Part shown: positions 49,593 through 57,741 of the stretch, one piece after another
How positions within the stretch are numbered: position 1 is the stretch's first letter
Layout: each line of letters starts with the position of its first letter
Source: Conexibacter sp. DBS9H8
Lineage (GTDB): Bacteria > Actinomycetota > Thermoleophilia > Solirubrobacterales > Solirubrobacteraceae
Direction of reading: 5' to 3'
DNA: 64,000 nt
Assembly: GCF_023330685.1 (NCBI RefSeq)
Contig: NZ_CP097128.1
Span: 930,001-994,000, forward strand
Program-made: the position numbers and the translations under genes
The notes under the pieces: model-generated
Databases searched by the model: none
What the model was told of the DNA's origin: nothing
Seen by the model: only the letters and a program-made list of their open reading frames with translations

Positions 49593-49660
49593 CCGGCGAG
49601 GCTGACCGCGGCGCTGCCCTGCCGGGTTGAGCGGGTCGGTCGGTACGGGAGAGGTTGGCG

Positions 49661-52513
49661 GTGCGGGAGATCAGCAGGCGAACGTTCGTCAAGGCGGCTG
49701 GGGCGGCTGGCGCGCTCCTGCTCGCAGGTCCCGCACCCGCGCGTGGCTTGCCAGGACCGCCGGCCGGGCGCCGCCTCCGGCCACGTCCCCGACCGGTTCC
49801 CGTCGGACCCCGTCCCTATCTGCTCGACACGCCGGTGTTCGGCGGGGAACTGCAGTACTTCCGCACAGACCCGGCGACGCTTCCGGACCGGCTCGCCCTC
49901 TGCCGGGAAGCGGCCTTCAGCGTGATCCAGACCTACGTCCCCTGGAACGTCCACGAGTTCTCGAGGGGGACGCTCGACTTTCAGGGCAGGACCCATCCAA
50001 TCCTGCCCAACGATCATCACCTCGACCCGTTCCAGTTCGGCGACTCGGTCGGGACCGGGGGGGTCAACACCTACGATCTCGGTCTGCAGGTCAACACCGA
50101 CCTTGAGACCTTTCTCGGGGCGTGTCGCGATTCCGGTTTCTCGGTCATCTTGAGGCCGGGACCGTTCATCTCCGACGAGTGGCGCAACGGAGGGATACCG
50201 GACTGGTTTCTCCAGGGCGCGCCCGCGGACACCTTCGAGTACGGTGCGGACGGCACCCCCCTGCTGGTCAGCCCGCCCTGGAGCAGCCCGCCCGCGGTCG
50301 CGGCGCTGCTCGGCGGCATGTCGCTGTACTACTTCCCCTCACCCAGCTACGCCTCCCCCTACTACCTGAGCGCCGTTCAGCAGTGGCTCCAGGGCTTCGC
50401 GGCGTTCGTTCGGCCCTGGCTGCACAGCAACGGCGGGCCGGTCGTCGCCGTCCAGGTCGACGATGAGACCTGCTTCTACTATCACTTCGGCGCCTTCGAG
50501 GTTGACTACAACCCGGCGATGGTCGCCCGCTACACGGCCGTGACGGGCCAACCGCCGCCGCGAGCCTGGCCGTCGCCGGCCCAGGGAATCGCCTCGCTGC
50601 GGCCCGCCTTTGCCTGGCAGCGGTTCAAAGCCGATCAGATCGGCACGTTTCTCGGCACGCTCGCGGGCGAGCTGCGCGCCGCCGGCGTCGACGTCCCGAT
50701 CACGCACGAGATGGAGCTGTCGCTGACCCCGCCGGCTGACTTCGCGGCTGACGCGGCGGCGGTGCTGCTCGCCCCCGAGCTCTATCCGGGCGCTGACGGC
50801 CCGGAGGCGATGCCGCTCATCGAGCTGACCGCCCAGTCGGCCCGAGCCGCGCAGCGCAACCGGACAAACGTCTGGTCGGCCGAGACCCAAGAGGGTGACA
50901 TGCTGCTGTCCAGCCTGCTGCTCGGAGAGGGGATCATCGGCTCGATCCAGTTCAACTACCAGCAGGGTGTCCCCGACGATGCGGTCGGCGTCAGCGGCCG
51001 GCTCGGTCAGGCCCTGCGGACCGCCGGCCGTCGCCTGACCGAGTGCCGGCGACGGGCCGACGTCGCGATCGTCTGGGACAACGACCTCGCCCACGCGCCC
51101 GTTGACTCTCAGCAGTGGGGGTTTGTCACAGATGTCAACGCGGTCATCGAGCATCACGTTCCGGCGCTCGCGACGCTGCTGCTGCGCGCCGGATACGCCT
51201 TCGACCTGCTGGACACGAGCGCAGCCGCCCCGGAAGATTACCTCGACTACCGGACGATCTTGCTCGCGTCTGCCGACATCCTGCCCCGCAGCGCACAGGT
51301 CAGCCTGGCTCGCTACGTGCGCCGGGGTGGACATCTCGTCTGCTGGGCCCAGCCGCCAAGCCTCGACGAGGACCTCGAGCCGTGTGCGATCCTCGCCCAG
51401 GCGTGCTTCGGCGAGCCCGTCGCCACCTTCTACCCCGAGCCGGCCCAGGAGATCGATGTGCTCGGTCACCCGGTGACGACCTATCTGGGGGTGCAGACGT
51501 TCTCCCTCTCCGCGCGGGCTGAGGCGATCGCTTCACGCGCCGGCGCACCGTGCGGTTACCGCCGCAGGGTCGGTCAGGGAGAGGCGGTGCTGCTCGGCAG
51601 CTGGCCGGCGGCTTACAACATCGCCTCCCGGTCAGGAGCGGTGCTCGAGGAGGTGCCCGGATCGGCCGCGGCCGATCCCGTCACCCAACTCGGACAGGTG
51701 GCCACCCTCGCCGGGAAGTACTTCGGTCCGCAGGCCGCGGCGGCGGTCCCCGCCGCGCTGACCAACGGCCCCGCGCAGACCTTCATCGTCTACGAGTACA
51801 CCAACCAGCGCCGCAGCAGCACCTATGTGCTCGCCGGCGGCGCGATCGCCTACTGGAACGGCGATCAGGTCGTCGGCCTGGTGCAGATCACCGCGGCGTC
51901 GGACGGAACCCCCCAGGTTCTCAACGAGATTCCCTACTGTCCGCCTGACGCCGCCCACGTCACCGCCATCCGGGCGCTCGTCGGTGCCCCGCCGGCGATT
52001 GAGAGCGTCGACCCGCGGATCCAGGCTCGGGTGCTCGATGCCCCCGACGGACAGGGCGCGACGGTGGTCGCCAACAACCGCTGGCCGGTGCCGGTCCCCC
52101 TCCGGCTCCGCACGCGCGTGGGAGCCAGAACAGTCGTGCTGCCGAGCCGGGGAGAGCTGACGCTGCCCGCAGAAACCGGGATCGTGCTGCCCGTCGACTA
52201 CGAGCTTCCCAACCAGGGGCGTCTGCTGTGGGCGACCGCACAGCTCCAGGGGGTGACTGCGCCGAACCGCTTGGCGGTCGCTCTGGCCCTGTGGGCCCCG
52301 GACACGGCCGAGATCGTTCTGCGGCTCCCGGGGCGCCTGCGGGTTGTGACTCTGGACGGCGCGCCGATCCGCCCGGTCCGGTCCGACGGCCGGGCCGTCA
52401 GCGTCGTCGTCGGCGCCGGCAGCCACACGCTGGAGGTGCGCTGGAACGAGCCGCGGCACCGGGCCAGGCGCCACCGCCGGGCCTGTGCTCGGCGGTGGCG
52501 GTCGGTGCGCTAG
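49661..52513 (+). CDS. Tat-exported GH35 beta-galactosidase-like glycosidase
   Basis: The 950-residue protein begins with a twin-arginine signal, SRRTFVKAAGAAGALLLAG. The catalytic barrel follows: GGELQYFRTDP near residue 60, then IQTYVPWNVHEFSRGTLDF with the GH35-typical W-N-x-H-E, and ILRPGPFISDEWRNGGIPDW. The acid/base motif, usually Q-V/I-E-N-E-Y, reads QVDDETC, so the acid Glu is kept but its Asn neighbour is Asp. The nucleophile may be the Glu in WSAETQEGD; this is less sure. Residues ~480 onward are beta domains. GTG 49661 follows GGGAGAGG; a TTG two codons upstream also fits. It lies between the two mrp repeats. Confidence 0.82.
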   Translation: MREISRRTFVKAAGAAGALLLAGPAPARGLPGPPAGRRLRPRPRPVPVGPRPYLLDTPVFGGELQYFRTDPATLPDRLALCREAAFSVIQTYVPWNVHEFSRGTLDFQGRTHPILPNDHHLDPFQFGDSVGTGGVNTYDLGLQVNTDLETFLGACRDSGFSVILRPGPFISDEWRNGGIPDWFLQGAPADTFEYGADGTPLLVSPPWSSPPAVAALLGGMSLYYFPSPSYASPYYLSAVQQWLQGFAAFVRPWLHSNGGPVVAVQVDDETCFYYHFGAFEVDYNPAMVARYTAVTGQPPPRAWPSPAQGIASLRPAFAWQRFKADQIGTFLGTLAGELRAAGVDVPITHEMELSLTPPADFAADAAAVLLAPELYPGADGPEAMPLIELTAQSARAAQRNRTNVWSAETQEGDMLLSSLLLGEGIIGSIQFNYQQGVPDDAVGVSGRLGQALRTAGRRLTECRRRADVAIVWDNDLAHAPVDSQQWGFVTDVNAVIEHHVPALATLLLRAGYAFDLLDTSAAAPEDYLDYRTILLASADILPRSAQVSLARYVRRGGHLVCWAQPPSLDEDLEPCAILAQACFGEPVATFYPEPAQEIDVLGHPVTTYLGVQTFSLSARAEAIASRAGAPCGYRRRVGQGEAVLLGSWPAAYNIASRSGAVLEEVPGSAAADPVTQLGQVATLAGKYFGPQAAAAVPAALTNGPAQTFIVYEYTNQRRSSTYVLAGGAIAYWNGDQVVGLVQITAASDGTPQVLNEIPYCPPDAAHVTAIRALVGAPPAIESVDPRIQARVLDAPDGQGATVVANNRWPVPVPLRLRTRVGARTVVLPSRGELTLPAETGIVLPVDYELPNQGRLLWATAQLQGVTAPNRLAVALALWAPDTAEIVLRLPGRLRVVTLDGAPIRPVRSDGRAVSVVVGAGSHTLEVRWNEPRHRARRHRRACARRWRSVR

Positions 52514-53791: not shown

Positions 53792-55000
53792 ATGTCGCTC
53801 GTCATCACTCCGGTTCGCGGCTTCCGTGAGCTCCAGGCCTTCGTCAAGCTGCCCGAGCGGCTCCACGCCGGCACCCCGTGGATCATCCAGCTGCGCATCG
53901 AACGCTACGCCTACCTGACCCGGGCCACCGGCGCGTTCTTCAAGCACGGCACCGCCCAGTATTTCCTCGCCCGCCGGGACGGGCGGATCGTCGGGCGGAT
54001 CAGCGCCCATGTCAGCCACCGGCTCAACGCCCAGCAGAACACCCGCTGGGGGCTGTTCGGGTTCTTCGACTTCGAGCAGGACCAGGAGATCTGTGACGCG
54101 CTCCTCACCGCCGCCGAAGGGTGGCTGCGCGCCCAGGGCTGTGACCGGATGGTCGGCCCGTTCAGCTTCACCCCCAACGATGAGGCGGGGATCCTGATCA
54201 AGGGCCACCACCTCGAGCCGATGATCCGCCAGGGGTGGAACCCGCCCTACTACCAGACGATGGTGGAGGCGGCCGGGCTCACCAAGGCGATGGACATGTA
54301 CCACTGGGAGCTCGACATCGCCGACCGCACCGAGCGGATGCTGCCGATCCTGCCCCAGCTCGCCCAGGAGGCCCGGGACAAGCACGGCCTGACGGTGCGG
54401 CGGATGACCCGGCGCAGCCTGTGGCGGGACCTTGACCAGTTCATCGAGGTCTACAACGCCGCCTGGGCCAAGAACTGGGGGTTTGTCCCCTACACGAAGG
54501 CGGACAAGCCCGAGCTGTGGGTCGACTACCAGCTCGTCTTCGCCGGCGAGTGGTTCATGATCGTTGAGGGGCCCGGCGGTGAGCTCGTCGCGATGGCCGC
54601 GACGATCCCCGACCCGAACCAGGTCCAGGAGCGGATGAAGGGGCGCCTGCTCCCGTTCGGCTGGTTCTACCTGATCTTCAAACGCCGCTTCATCGACCGC
54701 GCCCGGGTCGGCTTCCTCGGCGTGATGCCCGCCTACCAGCACACCGGCGCGGGTTCCCTGCTGTACATGGAGCACTACGACACCGCCCCGAAGACCAAGA
54801 TCACCCACGGGGAGGCCGGCTGGATCCTGGAGACGAACCGGTCGATGAACCGGGGGCTGGAGGCGATGGGCGGCCACATCACGAAGATCTACCGCGCCTA
54901 TGAGCGCATCTGGGAGGAGGGCGCGGTCCCCGCCGCCCCGCCCGAGCGGATCCGCCGCTACAACCCTCCGGCGCACGTGCTCGAGGCGCCGCCGAGCTGA
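53792..55000 (+). CDS. GNAT-fold-like conserved protein of unknown function
   Basis: The 402-residue protein resembles a conserved bacterial family with an acetyltransferase-like fold. ERLHAGTPWIIQLRIERYAY at the N-terminus is followed by FFKHGTAQYFLARRDGRIVG and FGFFDFEQDQEICDALLTAA, then GPFSFTPNDEAGIL near 125. The second half has VYNAAWAKNWGFVPYTK and FLGVMPAYQHTGAGSLLY, a likely acyl-CoA loop. I cannot name a substrate. It is divergent from mrp, with 64 bases between the starts. Confidence 0.8.
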   Translation: MSLVITPVRGFRELQAFVKLPERLHAGTPWIIQLRIERYAYLTRATGAFFKHGTAQYFLARRDGRIVGRISAHVSHRLNAQQNTRWGLFGFFDFEQDQEICDALLTAAEGWLRAQGCDRMVGPFSFTPNDEAGILIKGHHLEPMIRQGWNPPYYQTMVEAAGLTKAMDMYHWELDIADRTERMLPILPQLAQEARDKHGLTVRRMTRRSLWRDLDQFIEVYNAAWAKNWGFVPYTKADKPELWVDYQLVFAGEWFMIVEGPGGELVAMAATIPDPNQVQERMKGRLLPFGWFYLIFKRRFIDRARVGFLGVMPAYQHTGAGSLLYMEHYDTAPKTKITHGEAGWILETNRSMNRGLEAMGGHITKIYRAYERIWEEGAVPAAPPERIRRYNPPAHVLEAPPS

Positions 55001-55249: not shown

Positions 55250-55392
55250 CGACGGGGTGCCACTTGCGTGACACCCCGGCGGTTGAGGGAGGAGAGGGTG
55301 CTACATCCGCCGGCGAGGATATGAGGCCGACGAATCCGTCCCGGTGAGTCGCTCTCCTGGGCGACCTGCGGGGGAAGTTCGTGAGAACGAAG
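55250..55392. other. Short gap without visible gene
   Basis: I see no gene or strong site between the Phd-like remnant and the end of the minus-strand 11-residue-repeat protein. Confidence 0.4.
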
Positions 55393-56499
55393 TTAGCCGA
55401 CTGTCGCCGTCCCGAAGGCGATCTTCGTCACACTAGAGCTGAGCAGGGACGCTTGGCGGCTCAGCTGGGCGCCGACAAAGGCCACCGGCTTCTCCAGCTG
55501 GGTCGTGACGAAGCTGACGGGCTTCTCGAGCTGGCTGGAGACAAACGCGGTCGGCTTCTCCAGCTGGCTGGAGACGAACGCCGTCGGCTTCTCCAGCTGG
55601 GCGGAGAGAAAGCTGAGGGGATCATCGAGCTGAACGGTGATCACGCCGCGCTGGCGTTCGAGTTCGCTGCCGAGCTTCGCGGCCCGGCGCTCGAACCCAC
55701 CCGAGAGGGAGGAGAGGTCGCTCTCAATCCGCTTGGCGCGCTCCCGGACGGTCCGTTCGATCTGGCCGGCCTGATCACGGACCCGCCGTTCAATCCGGGC
55801 GCGCTGGTCCCGGACCTGGCGCTCGAGGCCCTCGCGGGCGCTCGCACCGCGCCGCTCGAAGCGCTCGAGCTCCTTGGCCAGGCTCTCCCGGGTCTCGAAC
55901 TTCGCGCCGAGGTCACGCAGGCTCGAGGCGACCTCATCCCGCAGGATCAGGCTCGCTCCGAGTGGCACGAGCATCGCCCGCTCGGCGACGACGGCGGCCT
56001 GGGCGACCGGGGTGCGCGCCTGGGTCGAGTCGCTCGGCGCCCGGGGCGGGGCGGCCGCGCCGGTGCGGGACCCGGGGGCTGGCTTCGGGCCCGCGCTCGC
56101 TCGCTTGGTGGCGGCCGGCTTGGCGCTGGTCGTCCGCCTGGTGGTCGCGGAGGTCTTGGCAGCCGTCCGCTTGCTCGCGGCGCCGGTCCCAGCCGTCTCG
56201 GTCGCCTTCGCGCCTGCGGCCGTCGTCTTCTTCGCGGCGGCGGCGGCGCTGCCCTTGCCGGCACGAGCCTTGGCGGTCCCGGTCGGAGCGGCGGCGCTCG
56301 CACGGGGTCGCGGCGTGCGCGCCGCGGCGCTCTGGGTGCCCGTGCCGGCCGCCCCGGCAGCGGCAGTGCGCCGAGGACGGCGGGGGGCGGTCGCCTCCGG
56401 GCTCGCGGGGGTGGCGGCGCCGGTGCTCTCCGGCGTCGTCGTCGCGGTCTCCGGGGCGGTGGATGAGGCGCCGGCCGTGGTCGGTGTGTTCTCAGGCAT
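55393..56499 (-). CDS. Histone-H1-like Ala/Lys/Pro-rich protein with coiled coil and 11-residue repeats
   Basis: I do not recognise a family. Residues 1 to about 165 are low-complexity Ala, Thr, Pro, Lys and Arg (AAAKKTTAAGAKATET), like histone H1 tails. Residues ~175-290 form a charged helix (LAKELERFERRGASAREGLE; RIERRVRDQAGQIERTVRER). About 295-350 has five or six units of 11 residues built on QLEKPTAFVSS, encoded by a 33-base repeat. Eleven-residue helical repeats occur in proteins that coat lipid surfaces, and the Lys/Ala tail resembles the DNA-binding tail of PhaF-type granule proteins, so a granule or nucleoid role is conceivable. Both are analogies only. Start ATG 56499. Confidence 0.7.
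   Translation of the reverse strand: MPENTPTTAGASSTAPETATTTPESTGAATPASPEATAPRRPRRTAAAGAAGTGTQSAAARTPRPRASAAAPTGTAKARAGKGSAAAAAKKTTAAGAKATETAGTGAASKRTAAKTSATTRRTTSAKPAATKRASAGPKPAPGSRTGAAAPPRAPSDSTQARTPVAQAAVVAERAMLVPLGASLILRDEVASSLRDLGAKFETRESLAKELERFERRGASAREGLERQVRDQRARIERRVRDQAGQIERTVRERAKRIESDLSSLSGGFERRAAKLGSELERQRGVITVQLDDPLSFLSAQLEKPTAFVSSQLEKPTAFVSSQLEKPVSFVTTQLEKPVAFVGAQLSRQASLLSSSVTKIAFGTATVG
55462..55626. repeat. Five tandem 33-base coding repeats
   Basis: Units start at 55462, 55495, 55528, 55561 and 55594. Each begins CAGCTGG or GAGCTGG and most end in GGCTTCTC. The central units (55528 and 55561) differ at only three positions by eye. They are in frame and code for the QLEKPxxFVxx repeats. 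Confidence 0.85.
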
Positions 56500-56682: not shown

Positions 56683-57741
56683 TCAGCCGCCGCGGGCGGC
56701 CGCCGTCCGGGCGAGCCACCCGGCCGGATCCTCGAGCTCGGCCCGGGTCGGCAGGGCCGACGGGGCGGAGAAGAGGTGGGCGAGCGCGGCCGTTCCCGCC
56801 GCCGCGACGATCGCATCACAGAACACCTTTCCGCGCGCGTACTGGGCGAGCTTCAGCTCAAGCCCGAGCAGCCGGCCGATCAGCCGCGAGGGTCCCATCC
56901 GGCCGGTCCGGCGGGCATCGAGGGCGGCCCGCAGCCGCGGCAGGGAGGGCAGCAGCTCGGGGGCGACGGCATCCATCACATGCTCGGCGTGGCCCTCGAT
57001 CACCGCCATCACCGCCTGGATCCGGTCGATCGTCGCCCGCTCGGTCGGGCTCGTCAACGCGCCGATCAGGTCGGCCCGGATGAGGGAGCGCCCGACCCGG
57101 CGGACCCCGGCGGCGGTCGGCAGCGACAGCCGGCGGGGCCGTTCCATCCGGACCTCCGCGGAGGCCATCAGCTCGCCGATCAGGCCGCTGAGGTGCGGTT
57201 TGAGCCAGCCGACGGCGCCGAACTGAACCGCGTGAGTGACCTCATGGAGCATCACCCAGGTGAGGAACTCGTCCGCGTCGGCCCCGAACCCGGCGACCGC
57301 CTTGGTCAGGTTCGGCATCACGAGCAGCAGCCGGGGCGGGTGCGGGTCGGCCTCCTCCACGAGCACGAGCTCGTACTGGCCGAGCACCCGCTGGGCGAGA
57401 TAGCCGACGAGCAGGCCCAGCTCGGTGGAGACGGCCGCGCCGATCGCCAGCTGGGCGGCCGGAGCGGCCGGTCCGAGGCCCCTGCCCGCCCGGGTGAGGA
57501 CAGGCTCCATCAGGGACCGCATCGAGGTGAGGTTCGCGCGCACCCACTCACGCCGGTCGACCGCCTCGGGCGCGGGCAGCGGCGCGTCCGGCACGAGGCC
57601 GGTGTAGGCGACGACCCGACGCTGCGCCTCCGCGGCGATCGTGCTGAGGTCGGGGGTGGTCGGCCGCGGGCCAGCGGGCCCGCGGCCGGCGACGCGGGTG
57701 GCGATCCACTCGGCGACGATCCAGTCGACGAGGTCGCTCAT
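56683..57741 (-). CDS. DUF2342-family zinc metalloprotease
   Basis: The 352-residue protein starts VDWIVAEWIATRVAG and carries LHEVTHAVQFGA with His166, Glu167 and His170, the HExxH zinc site. The later segment AVMAVIEGHAEHVMDAV near 270 supplies the third ligand region (Glu-Gly-His). This matches the actinobacterial DUF2342 'zinc-dependent metalloprotease / F420 biosynthesis-associated' family, whose substrate is unknown. It starts in a one-base TGATG overlap with the inositol-phosphatase-like gene stop. Confidence 0.87.
   Translation of the reverse strand: MSDLVDWIVAEWIATRVAGRGPAGPRPTTPDLSTIAAEAQRRVVAYTGLVPDAPLPAPEAVDRREWVRANLTSMRSLMEPVLTRAGRGLGPAAPAAQLAIGAAVSTELGLLVGYLAQRVLGQYELVLVEEADPHPPRLLLVMPNLTKAVAGFGADADEFLTWVMLHEVTHAVQFGAVGWLKPHLSGLIGELMASAEVRMERPRRLSLPTAAGVRRVGRSLIRADLIGALTSPTERATIDRIQAVMAVIEGHAEHVMDAVAPELLPSLPRLRAALDARRTGRMGPSRLIGRLLGLELKLAQYARGKVFCDAIVAAAGTAALAHLFSAPSALPTRAELEDPAGWLARTAAARGG

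Follow-up and report, generated by a model that had tools for sequence, protein, structure and literature searches.

The described proteins closest to the one reported here join a helical part to a basic or histone-H1-like tail. In PhaF, an N-terminal amphipathic helix is combined with a zipper and with a C-terminus that binds DNA (PMC3574117), and AlgP, whose helical domain is N-terminal and whose H1-like tail is C-terminal, spaces polyphosphate granules in Pseudomonas (PMC9239181). In MLDS, the major droplet protein recruiting DNA to lipid droplets, a basic tail is joined to an apolipoprotein-like helix; the protein bridges droplets and DNA, and the DNA is bound via C-terminal PAKKA motifs (PMC5504291). 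HBHA affects lipid inclusions and possesses an apolipoprotein-like coil, the apolipoprotein A1/A4/E model being its reported top match (PMC6176652), and it is a nucleoid-associated protein, bending DNA and forming loops in it (PMC10665949). In perilipin 4, the 11-mers by which droplets are coated have been interpreted as a 3-11 helix, and 11-mer helices of this type are found in perilipins on lipid droplets and also in apolipoproteins and synuclein (PMC5889406). In our literature search, mainly of non-subscription sources, with lipid droplet, phasin and HBHA/TadA as subjects, no such protein was reported from Solirubrobacter, Thermoleophilia or Solirubrobacterales among the matches listed.

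In the window, i.e. the whole stretch of 64,000 nucleotides analysed here from Conexibacter sp. DBS9H8, an open reading frame of 368 amino acids with an ATG start was read at 55393-56499 on the minus strand. An antisense frame is also open (55381-56466, plus strand); the minus strand is taken as the coding one because relatives keep its frame in 110 of the 146 genomes of the host's taxonomic family, searched with residues 165-368 as the query, and the frame proposed by an earlier sequence-only reading of this DNA is thereby confirmed. Among the good-quality genomes of this set, 59 of 71 contain a relative of this gene, hereafter the core gene. The host genome, a single contig of 3.64 Mb, contains it in one copy. 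Additionally, a sample of the phylum gave core matches in 23 of 396 genomes; the strong ones came from the host's own family and from a sister family within its order, and the others were weak (E 1e-5 or worse) and nearly all restricted to the coil. When 84,980 named species genomes were scanned by pattern, 61 loci were obtained; most are titled Solirubrobacterales, Thermoleophilaceae, Conexibacter, Paraconexibacter, Svornostia or Patulibacter, and one, titled Bifidobacterium breve, is probably mislabelled. Judged by its strong matches, the core family is real, conserved and confined to the order Solirubrobacterales. No Pfam or NCBIfam model matched the window protein above cut-off and only weak matches were obtained for 50 members, so that the outcome which would have refuted the sequence-only reading, a clear relationship with some described family of different function, did not arise.

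In three genomes (G402, G002 and G504) the core family is represented a second time, at another site (L172, L173 and L174), and the N-terminal basic tail is present in L172 and L173 too, the two for which frames were printed. At another locus a partial second copy (L008:2252-2710, G061:C466) is separated from the first by about 0.6 kb and continues into sequence like that of the Mrp neighbour described below in another frame, by assembly error or decaying duplication; it was omitted from the first family alignment, which 50 of 51 sequences entered.

Of 101 loci, 86 gave a core match at E 1e-8 and were used to count the gene neighbourhood; they are not independent genomes, some contigs having been fetched twice (e.g. 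L043 and L062). A Mrp/NUBPL-type P-loop NTPase gene (PF10609; 52597-53898, minus strand, downstream of the core gene) is found on the same strand at 81 of the 86 loci, a Zincin_2 (PF10103) metallopeptidase-like gene (56683-57741, minus strand, upstream) at 74, a UvrD/PDDEXK gene at 68 and an inositol monophosphatase-like gene (PF00459; 57741-58622, minus strand) at 54. The genes follow one another as in the window, and those for Mrp, Zincin_2 and the phosphatase share the strand of the core gene; this order is strongly conserved, but the neighbours name no function. The neighbourhood of HBHA genes differs from this one. Between the core and Mrp genes, the window contains a GNAT-type gene (53792-55000, plus strand) on the opposite strand, which was found at only 4 of the 86 loci; at loci elsewhere, core and Mrp genes are mostly on one strand and about 1 kb apart. 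A glycosyl hydrolase family 35-like gene with a sub-cut-off twin-arginine signal match (49655-52513, plus strand) adjoins the conserved cluster.

The protein begins with a low-complexity tail, residues 1-162 (56014-56499, minus strand), rich in Ala, Thr, Pro, Arg and Lys and with a net charge of +19. Its basic part is formed by residues 39-162 (56014-56385), with 15 Arg and 10 Lys (25 basic residues) versus 2 acidic ones, while residues 1-38 contain neither Lys nor Arg and have 4 acidic residues. The basic N-terminal tail of the sequence-only reading is thus retained, and the Ala/Lys/Pro composition given to it has to be corrected. With the tails of the relatives taken to start at the frame's first Met and called basic at a net charge of +8 or more, such a tail was found on the N-side in 55 of the 61 named relatives and on the C-side in none of the 61. 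The exceptions are L065, L091, L108 and L115, with net charges of +5 to +7, and L119 and L120, with −3 and −5. The inversion relative to PhaF-type proteins, noted beforehand for this protein, is therefore a property of the whole family. As a separate observation, the relatives L055 (in G085), L059 (in G087), L119 and L120 have no basic tail.

The tail is followed by an apolar "neck" helix, AERAMLVPLGASLILRDEV, at residues 163-200 (55900-56013, minus strand), which is the most conserved segment and has an RG motif after it. In the first family alignment and in a second one used for conservation (56 of the 61 named relatives plus the window sequence, with L087, L108, L112, L115 and L117 omitted), the neck Gly and a downstream E-R-R-G belong to the few invariant or near-invariant columns.

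Residues 213-355 consist of 13 consecutive 11-mers in a single unbroken register. Seven are charged units (residues 213-289; 55633-55863, minus strand) of the type R-I-E-R-R-V-R-D-Q-A-G, with an x-hydrophobic-E-R pattern conserved across the family, and the last six (residues 290-355; 55435-55632, minus strand), in the same register, are of the QLEKPxAFVSS type, such as Q-L-E-K-P-T-A-F-V-S-S. Position 2 of the register is hydrophobic (F, L or I) in 13/13 units, position 3 acidic in 12/13 and position 4 basic in 11/13. The "charged coil" and the QLEKP repeats, which had been described as separate modules, are therefore one array, in which the 11-residue period extends much further than had been noticed. 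The amphipathic 11-residue periodicity claimed for the C-terminal repeats is supported: the identity at lag 11 over residues 213-355 is 0.417, a value reached by 0 of 5000 shuffles, and the hydrophobic moment peaks at 98.2 degrees, with 0.391 for the coil and 0.290 for the repeats, each reached by 1 of 2000 shuffles. At 102.9 degrees the moment is near nil (0.03 for the coil, 0.01 for the repeats). The periodicity fits an 11/3 helix and contains almost nothing of a heptad coil. The apolar faces of the charged and QLEKP parts point to 156 and 125 degrees, i.e. 31 degrees apart, the charged units having few apolar residues, at positions 2 and 6.

The same analysis was extended to 48 of 56 relatives, the others being short or without the RG landmark. 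The best angle of the family coil is 96-100 degrees in 46 of these 48 sequences, and in the class autocorrelation lag 11 is the strongest (0.502, versus 0.320 for lag 7). In control coils picked by the apolipoprotein model (L193 omitted), the top lag was 11 or 22 in 16 of 29 and the best angle 96-100 degrees in 21 of 29. The 11-residue period is therefore characteristic of the family, yet it is also present in control coils and is not unique to it.

AlphaFold2, run with a 57-row alignment, predicted a helix at residues 164-200 (pLDDT about 90 or more) and a second at 204-288, with pLDDT above 90 up to about residue 282. Residues 293-342 were of low confidence, with block means of about 45-56, and a helix was placed at 329-361. 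Without the alignment, residues 268-368 were modelled as a single helix, 269-362, with a mean pLDDT of 70 (70 to 31 over the five models). A helix for the QLEKP units is thus not predicted with confidence, the continuous helix being a weak one; according to these models, the proline-bearing units may be helical. A Foldseek search of the model against the PDB gave 0 matches, which is uninformative for a long helix.

At the DNA level, the QLEKP units are 33-bp tandem repeats, and proline occupies position 5 in 5/6 of the C-terminal units (290-355), i.e. in five consecutive 11-mers. This proline-bearing type was found in none of the other genomes among the 146 of the same family. The two best matches of the repeat search, L142 and L143 (E 0.001 and 0.002), belong to other genes and were rejected as chance; the remaining matches, with E 0.01 to 0.9, were inspected in part. 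Among relatives whose C-terminal part is long, the nearest, L004, has 11-mers there (ELERRANAIST etc.) which are not of the QLEKP type. The array could be a lineage-specific expansion of the ancestral 11-mer by replication slippage in DNA of about 70% GC, with no separate function; its restriction to this genome among the 146, the tandem repeats and the units 301 and 312, which differ at only 2/33 bases, argue for such an expansion. Against it, the other unit pairs within 301-344 differ at 8-11 of 33 bases, yet Q-L-E-K-P and F-V are kept, and the codons differ in 14 of the 49 same-residue comparisons of units 301-344, so that the array is not wholly a very recent duplication. Base divergence with kept residues suggests selection on the protein, and we regard a functionless expansion as unlikely, although it retains an appreciable chance.

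Profile comparisons were then set against the known families. The hhalign probability of the core family versus HBHA-like proteins is 11%, with a score of 27.4, compared with 3% and 5% and scores of 23.0 and 24.4 for reversed decoys. The neck versus the HBHA neck scored above 100 of 100 column-shuffled decoys, with a probability of only 18% over 28 columns. Shared ancestry with HBHA is not supported, the full-domain profile being at decoy level and the hint limited to the neck. HBHA-type relatives are present in 57 of 61 genomes of the comparison family; among the 146 genomes here there was 1 weak match, and the host genome has no such relative. The phasin model PF05597 gave no match in the host genome; 8 of 50 members matched it weakly, none above cut-off (best E 0.053). 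As for the apolipoprotein model PF01442, the window protein reaches 16.9-19.5 bits, versus a curated cut-off of 90, and 34 of 50 members match (best E 1.2e-6). This model is promiscuous, matching at E 0.001 or better in 135 of 296 sampled Actinomycetota genomes and in 7 of 14 controls, never above cut-off; the match is real but uninformative, and apolipoprotein homology was set aside. On the strength of these profiles, the core family can be assigned neither to HBHA/MLDS nor to the phasins.

Another small helical family, A4 (L131-L139, e.g. L133:1306-1752, minus strand), has an Ala/Lys/Pro/Arg tail at the C-terminus, a PhaF-like polarity, and occurs in 65 of the 146 genomes, with only 4 of the host's own genus, 3 of these borderline. 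It was considered as a possible PhaF equivalent and rejected, as the host genome contains no A4 member. The hhalign probability of the core family versus the phasin-like family (A4 proteins and their neighbours L129 and L140) is 0.2%.

PhaC_N, the PHA synthase model, has no match in the host genome; over the 146 genomes it matches in 38 at E<=0.001, with 34 above cut-off and many partial. With neither PhaC_N nor PF05597 in the host genome, the reading as a PHA-granule phasin was abandoned as first choice, and PHA granules are unlikely in this host. The wax-ester/TAG synthase WS/DGAT has 4 loci there and matches in 143 of the 146 genomes. Given these genes and the lack of a PhaC_N match, neutral-lipid droplets, which may be present in the host, are likelier than PHA granules as its partner. 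Only G085, G086 and G087 are without WS/DGAT, and the relative in G085, the one of the three that was matched to a named record (L119), is tail-less, with a net charge of −3; this pairing of tail loss with WS/DGAT loss in one lineage is suggestive only. Polyphosphate kinase is present in the host genome and in 7 of 14 controls.

From the observed anatomy, periodicity, conservation, tail polarity and WS/DGAT genes without a PhaC match, we infer by analogy that the core protein would bind DNA and lipid, with its type of inclusion, location and linking role following the same analogy. It would be a cytoplasmic linker joining the nucleoid to the surfaces of storage inclusions, most likely TAG/wax-ester droplets, of MLDS/HBHA-like design with inverted polarity, which we tentatively favour as possible, if short of probable. 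Sequence-independent DNA binding would be the task of the disordered basic tail at the N-terminus. The short apolar neck, together with the long 13-unit amphipathic 11/3 helix, would either rest on the phospholipid monolayer or associate with itself, and in the QLEKPxAFVSS units the residues L2, V9, V/T6, F8 and P5 (register numbering) would make the apolar face wider. The protein would work like MLDS/HBHA/TadA and PhaF, with its DNA-binding tail at the opposite end. The link between granule and nucleoid suggested beforehand thus stands as the best analogy, with close functional precedents in MLDS, HBHA, PhaF and AlgP.

The polarity and charge of the tail, the moment peak near 98 degrees with near nil at 103, the alignment of both apolar faces and the same period throughout the family coil speak for such a linker, as do the lipid-coating 11-mers of perilipins (PMC5889406) together with the MLDS/HBHA design. 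The WS/DGAT genes without PhaC_N favour a droplet linker in particular, and the tail-less relative in the WS/DGAT-less G085 points in the same direction. The absence of HBHA-type relatives from the host genome would leave the linker role otherwise unfilled. Against the linker stand the decoy-level HBHA profile score, the 11-residue period of more than half of the control coils and neighbours which are not lipid-storage genes; the prolines and low pLDDT of the QLEKP units argue against one straight helix, WS/DGAT is so nearly universal in the clade that its presence does not discriminate, and the promiscuous PF01442 matches say little.

The main rival is a nucleoid-associated, histone-H1-like organiser of DNA only, in which a right-handed hendecad coiled coil would join two or more tails and no lipid surface would be involved. 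A hendecad coiled coil has a narrow a/h core, which the few apolar residues of the charged units, at positions 2 and 6, resemble. The confident prediction of 204-288 as one long helix and the prevalence of the N-side basic tail among the relatives fit such an organiser, and DNA is bent and looped by HBHA itself (PMC10665949). Members also match the ATP synthase b/b' and V-ATPase G models, but all these stalk-subunit matches are below cut-off. Moreover, the apolar face of the QLEKP units is wider than a coiled-coil core needs, and such an organiser would leave the conserved apolar neck and the invariant Gly in it unexplained; we consider the DNA-only organiser rather doubtful. Polyphosphate granules could take the place of the lipid droplets, since the host has a polyphosphate kinase and a helix with an H1-like tail spaces such granules in the case of AlgP (PMC9239181). 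The polarity of AlgP is opposite, however, a polyanion has no need of a broad apolar amphipathic face, and the kinase is too widespread to discriminate, so that a polyphosphate linker is improbable. Equally improbable is an LEA-like protectant against desiccation or stress, disordered, built of 11-mers and binding DNA and membranes weakly. Group-3 LEA proteins typically show amphipathic 11-mer repeats and low complexity, both of which are found here too, and some of the named hosts are titled as Antarctic or soil-type isolates; nevertheless, the LEA models of Pfam and NCBIfam gave no match, the prediction of the charged helix is highly confident, and locus and neck are highly conserved.

Carrying the droplet-nucleoid linker further, the Solirubrobacterales may have evolved one of their own, independently of HBHA/MLDS and with the tail first, in which a perilipin-like, droplet-coating 11-mer helix was lengthened in the lineage of the host by proline-punctuated units, which may enable it to follow a curved droplet surface; this extended scenario we hold to be unlikely as it stands. 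If the linker reading is true, the joining of inclusions and chromosome through a basic tail and an amphipathic helix has had more than one origin in bacteria, and it makes no difference which part comes first. A droplet-chromosome link would then be a general need for inheriting or using droplets and not a quirk of Rhodococcus/Mycobacterium, and a function would be given to a conserved family of a little-studied soil order which has no Pfam/NCBIfam match passing the cut-off.

The core protein resembles PhaF and AlgP in the combination of an amphipathic or oligomerising helix with an H1-like tail and in the proposed granule-nucleoid link (PMC3574117 and PMC9239181), but these carry the tail at their C-terminus. 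With perilipins, apolipoproteins and alpha-synuclein it shares a long 11-residue run readable as a 3-11 helix (PMC5889406); they lack its proline in five consecutive 11-mers and the joined basic tail. Right-handed hendecad coils such as ATP synthase b have the 11-residue period and the sparse apolar stripe of the charged units, whereas the core protein has no recognised membrane anchor or cut-off match and presents a broad apolar face in its last six units. The helical region of HBHA-like proteins is dominated by lags 18 and 7, not 11, in a set of 33 loci where, in at least two cases (L184/L221 and L206/L220), one gene is present twice. HBHA, TadA and MLDS, which come from the actinobacteria Mycobacterium and Rhodococcus, combine like the core family a short apolar segment, for which the likeness is tentative, a long amphipathic helical region and a basic Ala/Pro/Lys/Arg tail; their tail is C-terminal with Lys-rich PAKKA repeats, whereas that of the core family is N-terminal.
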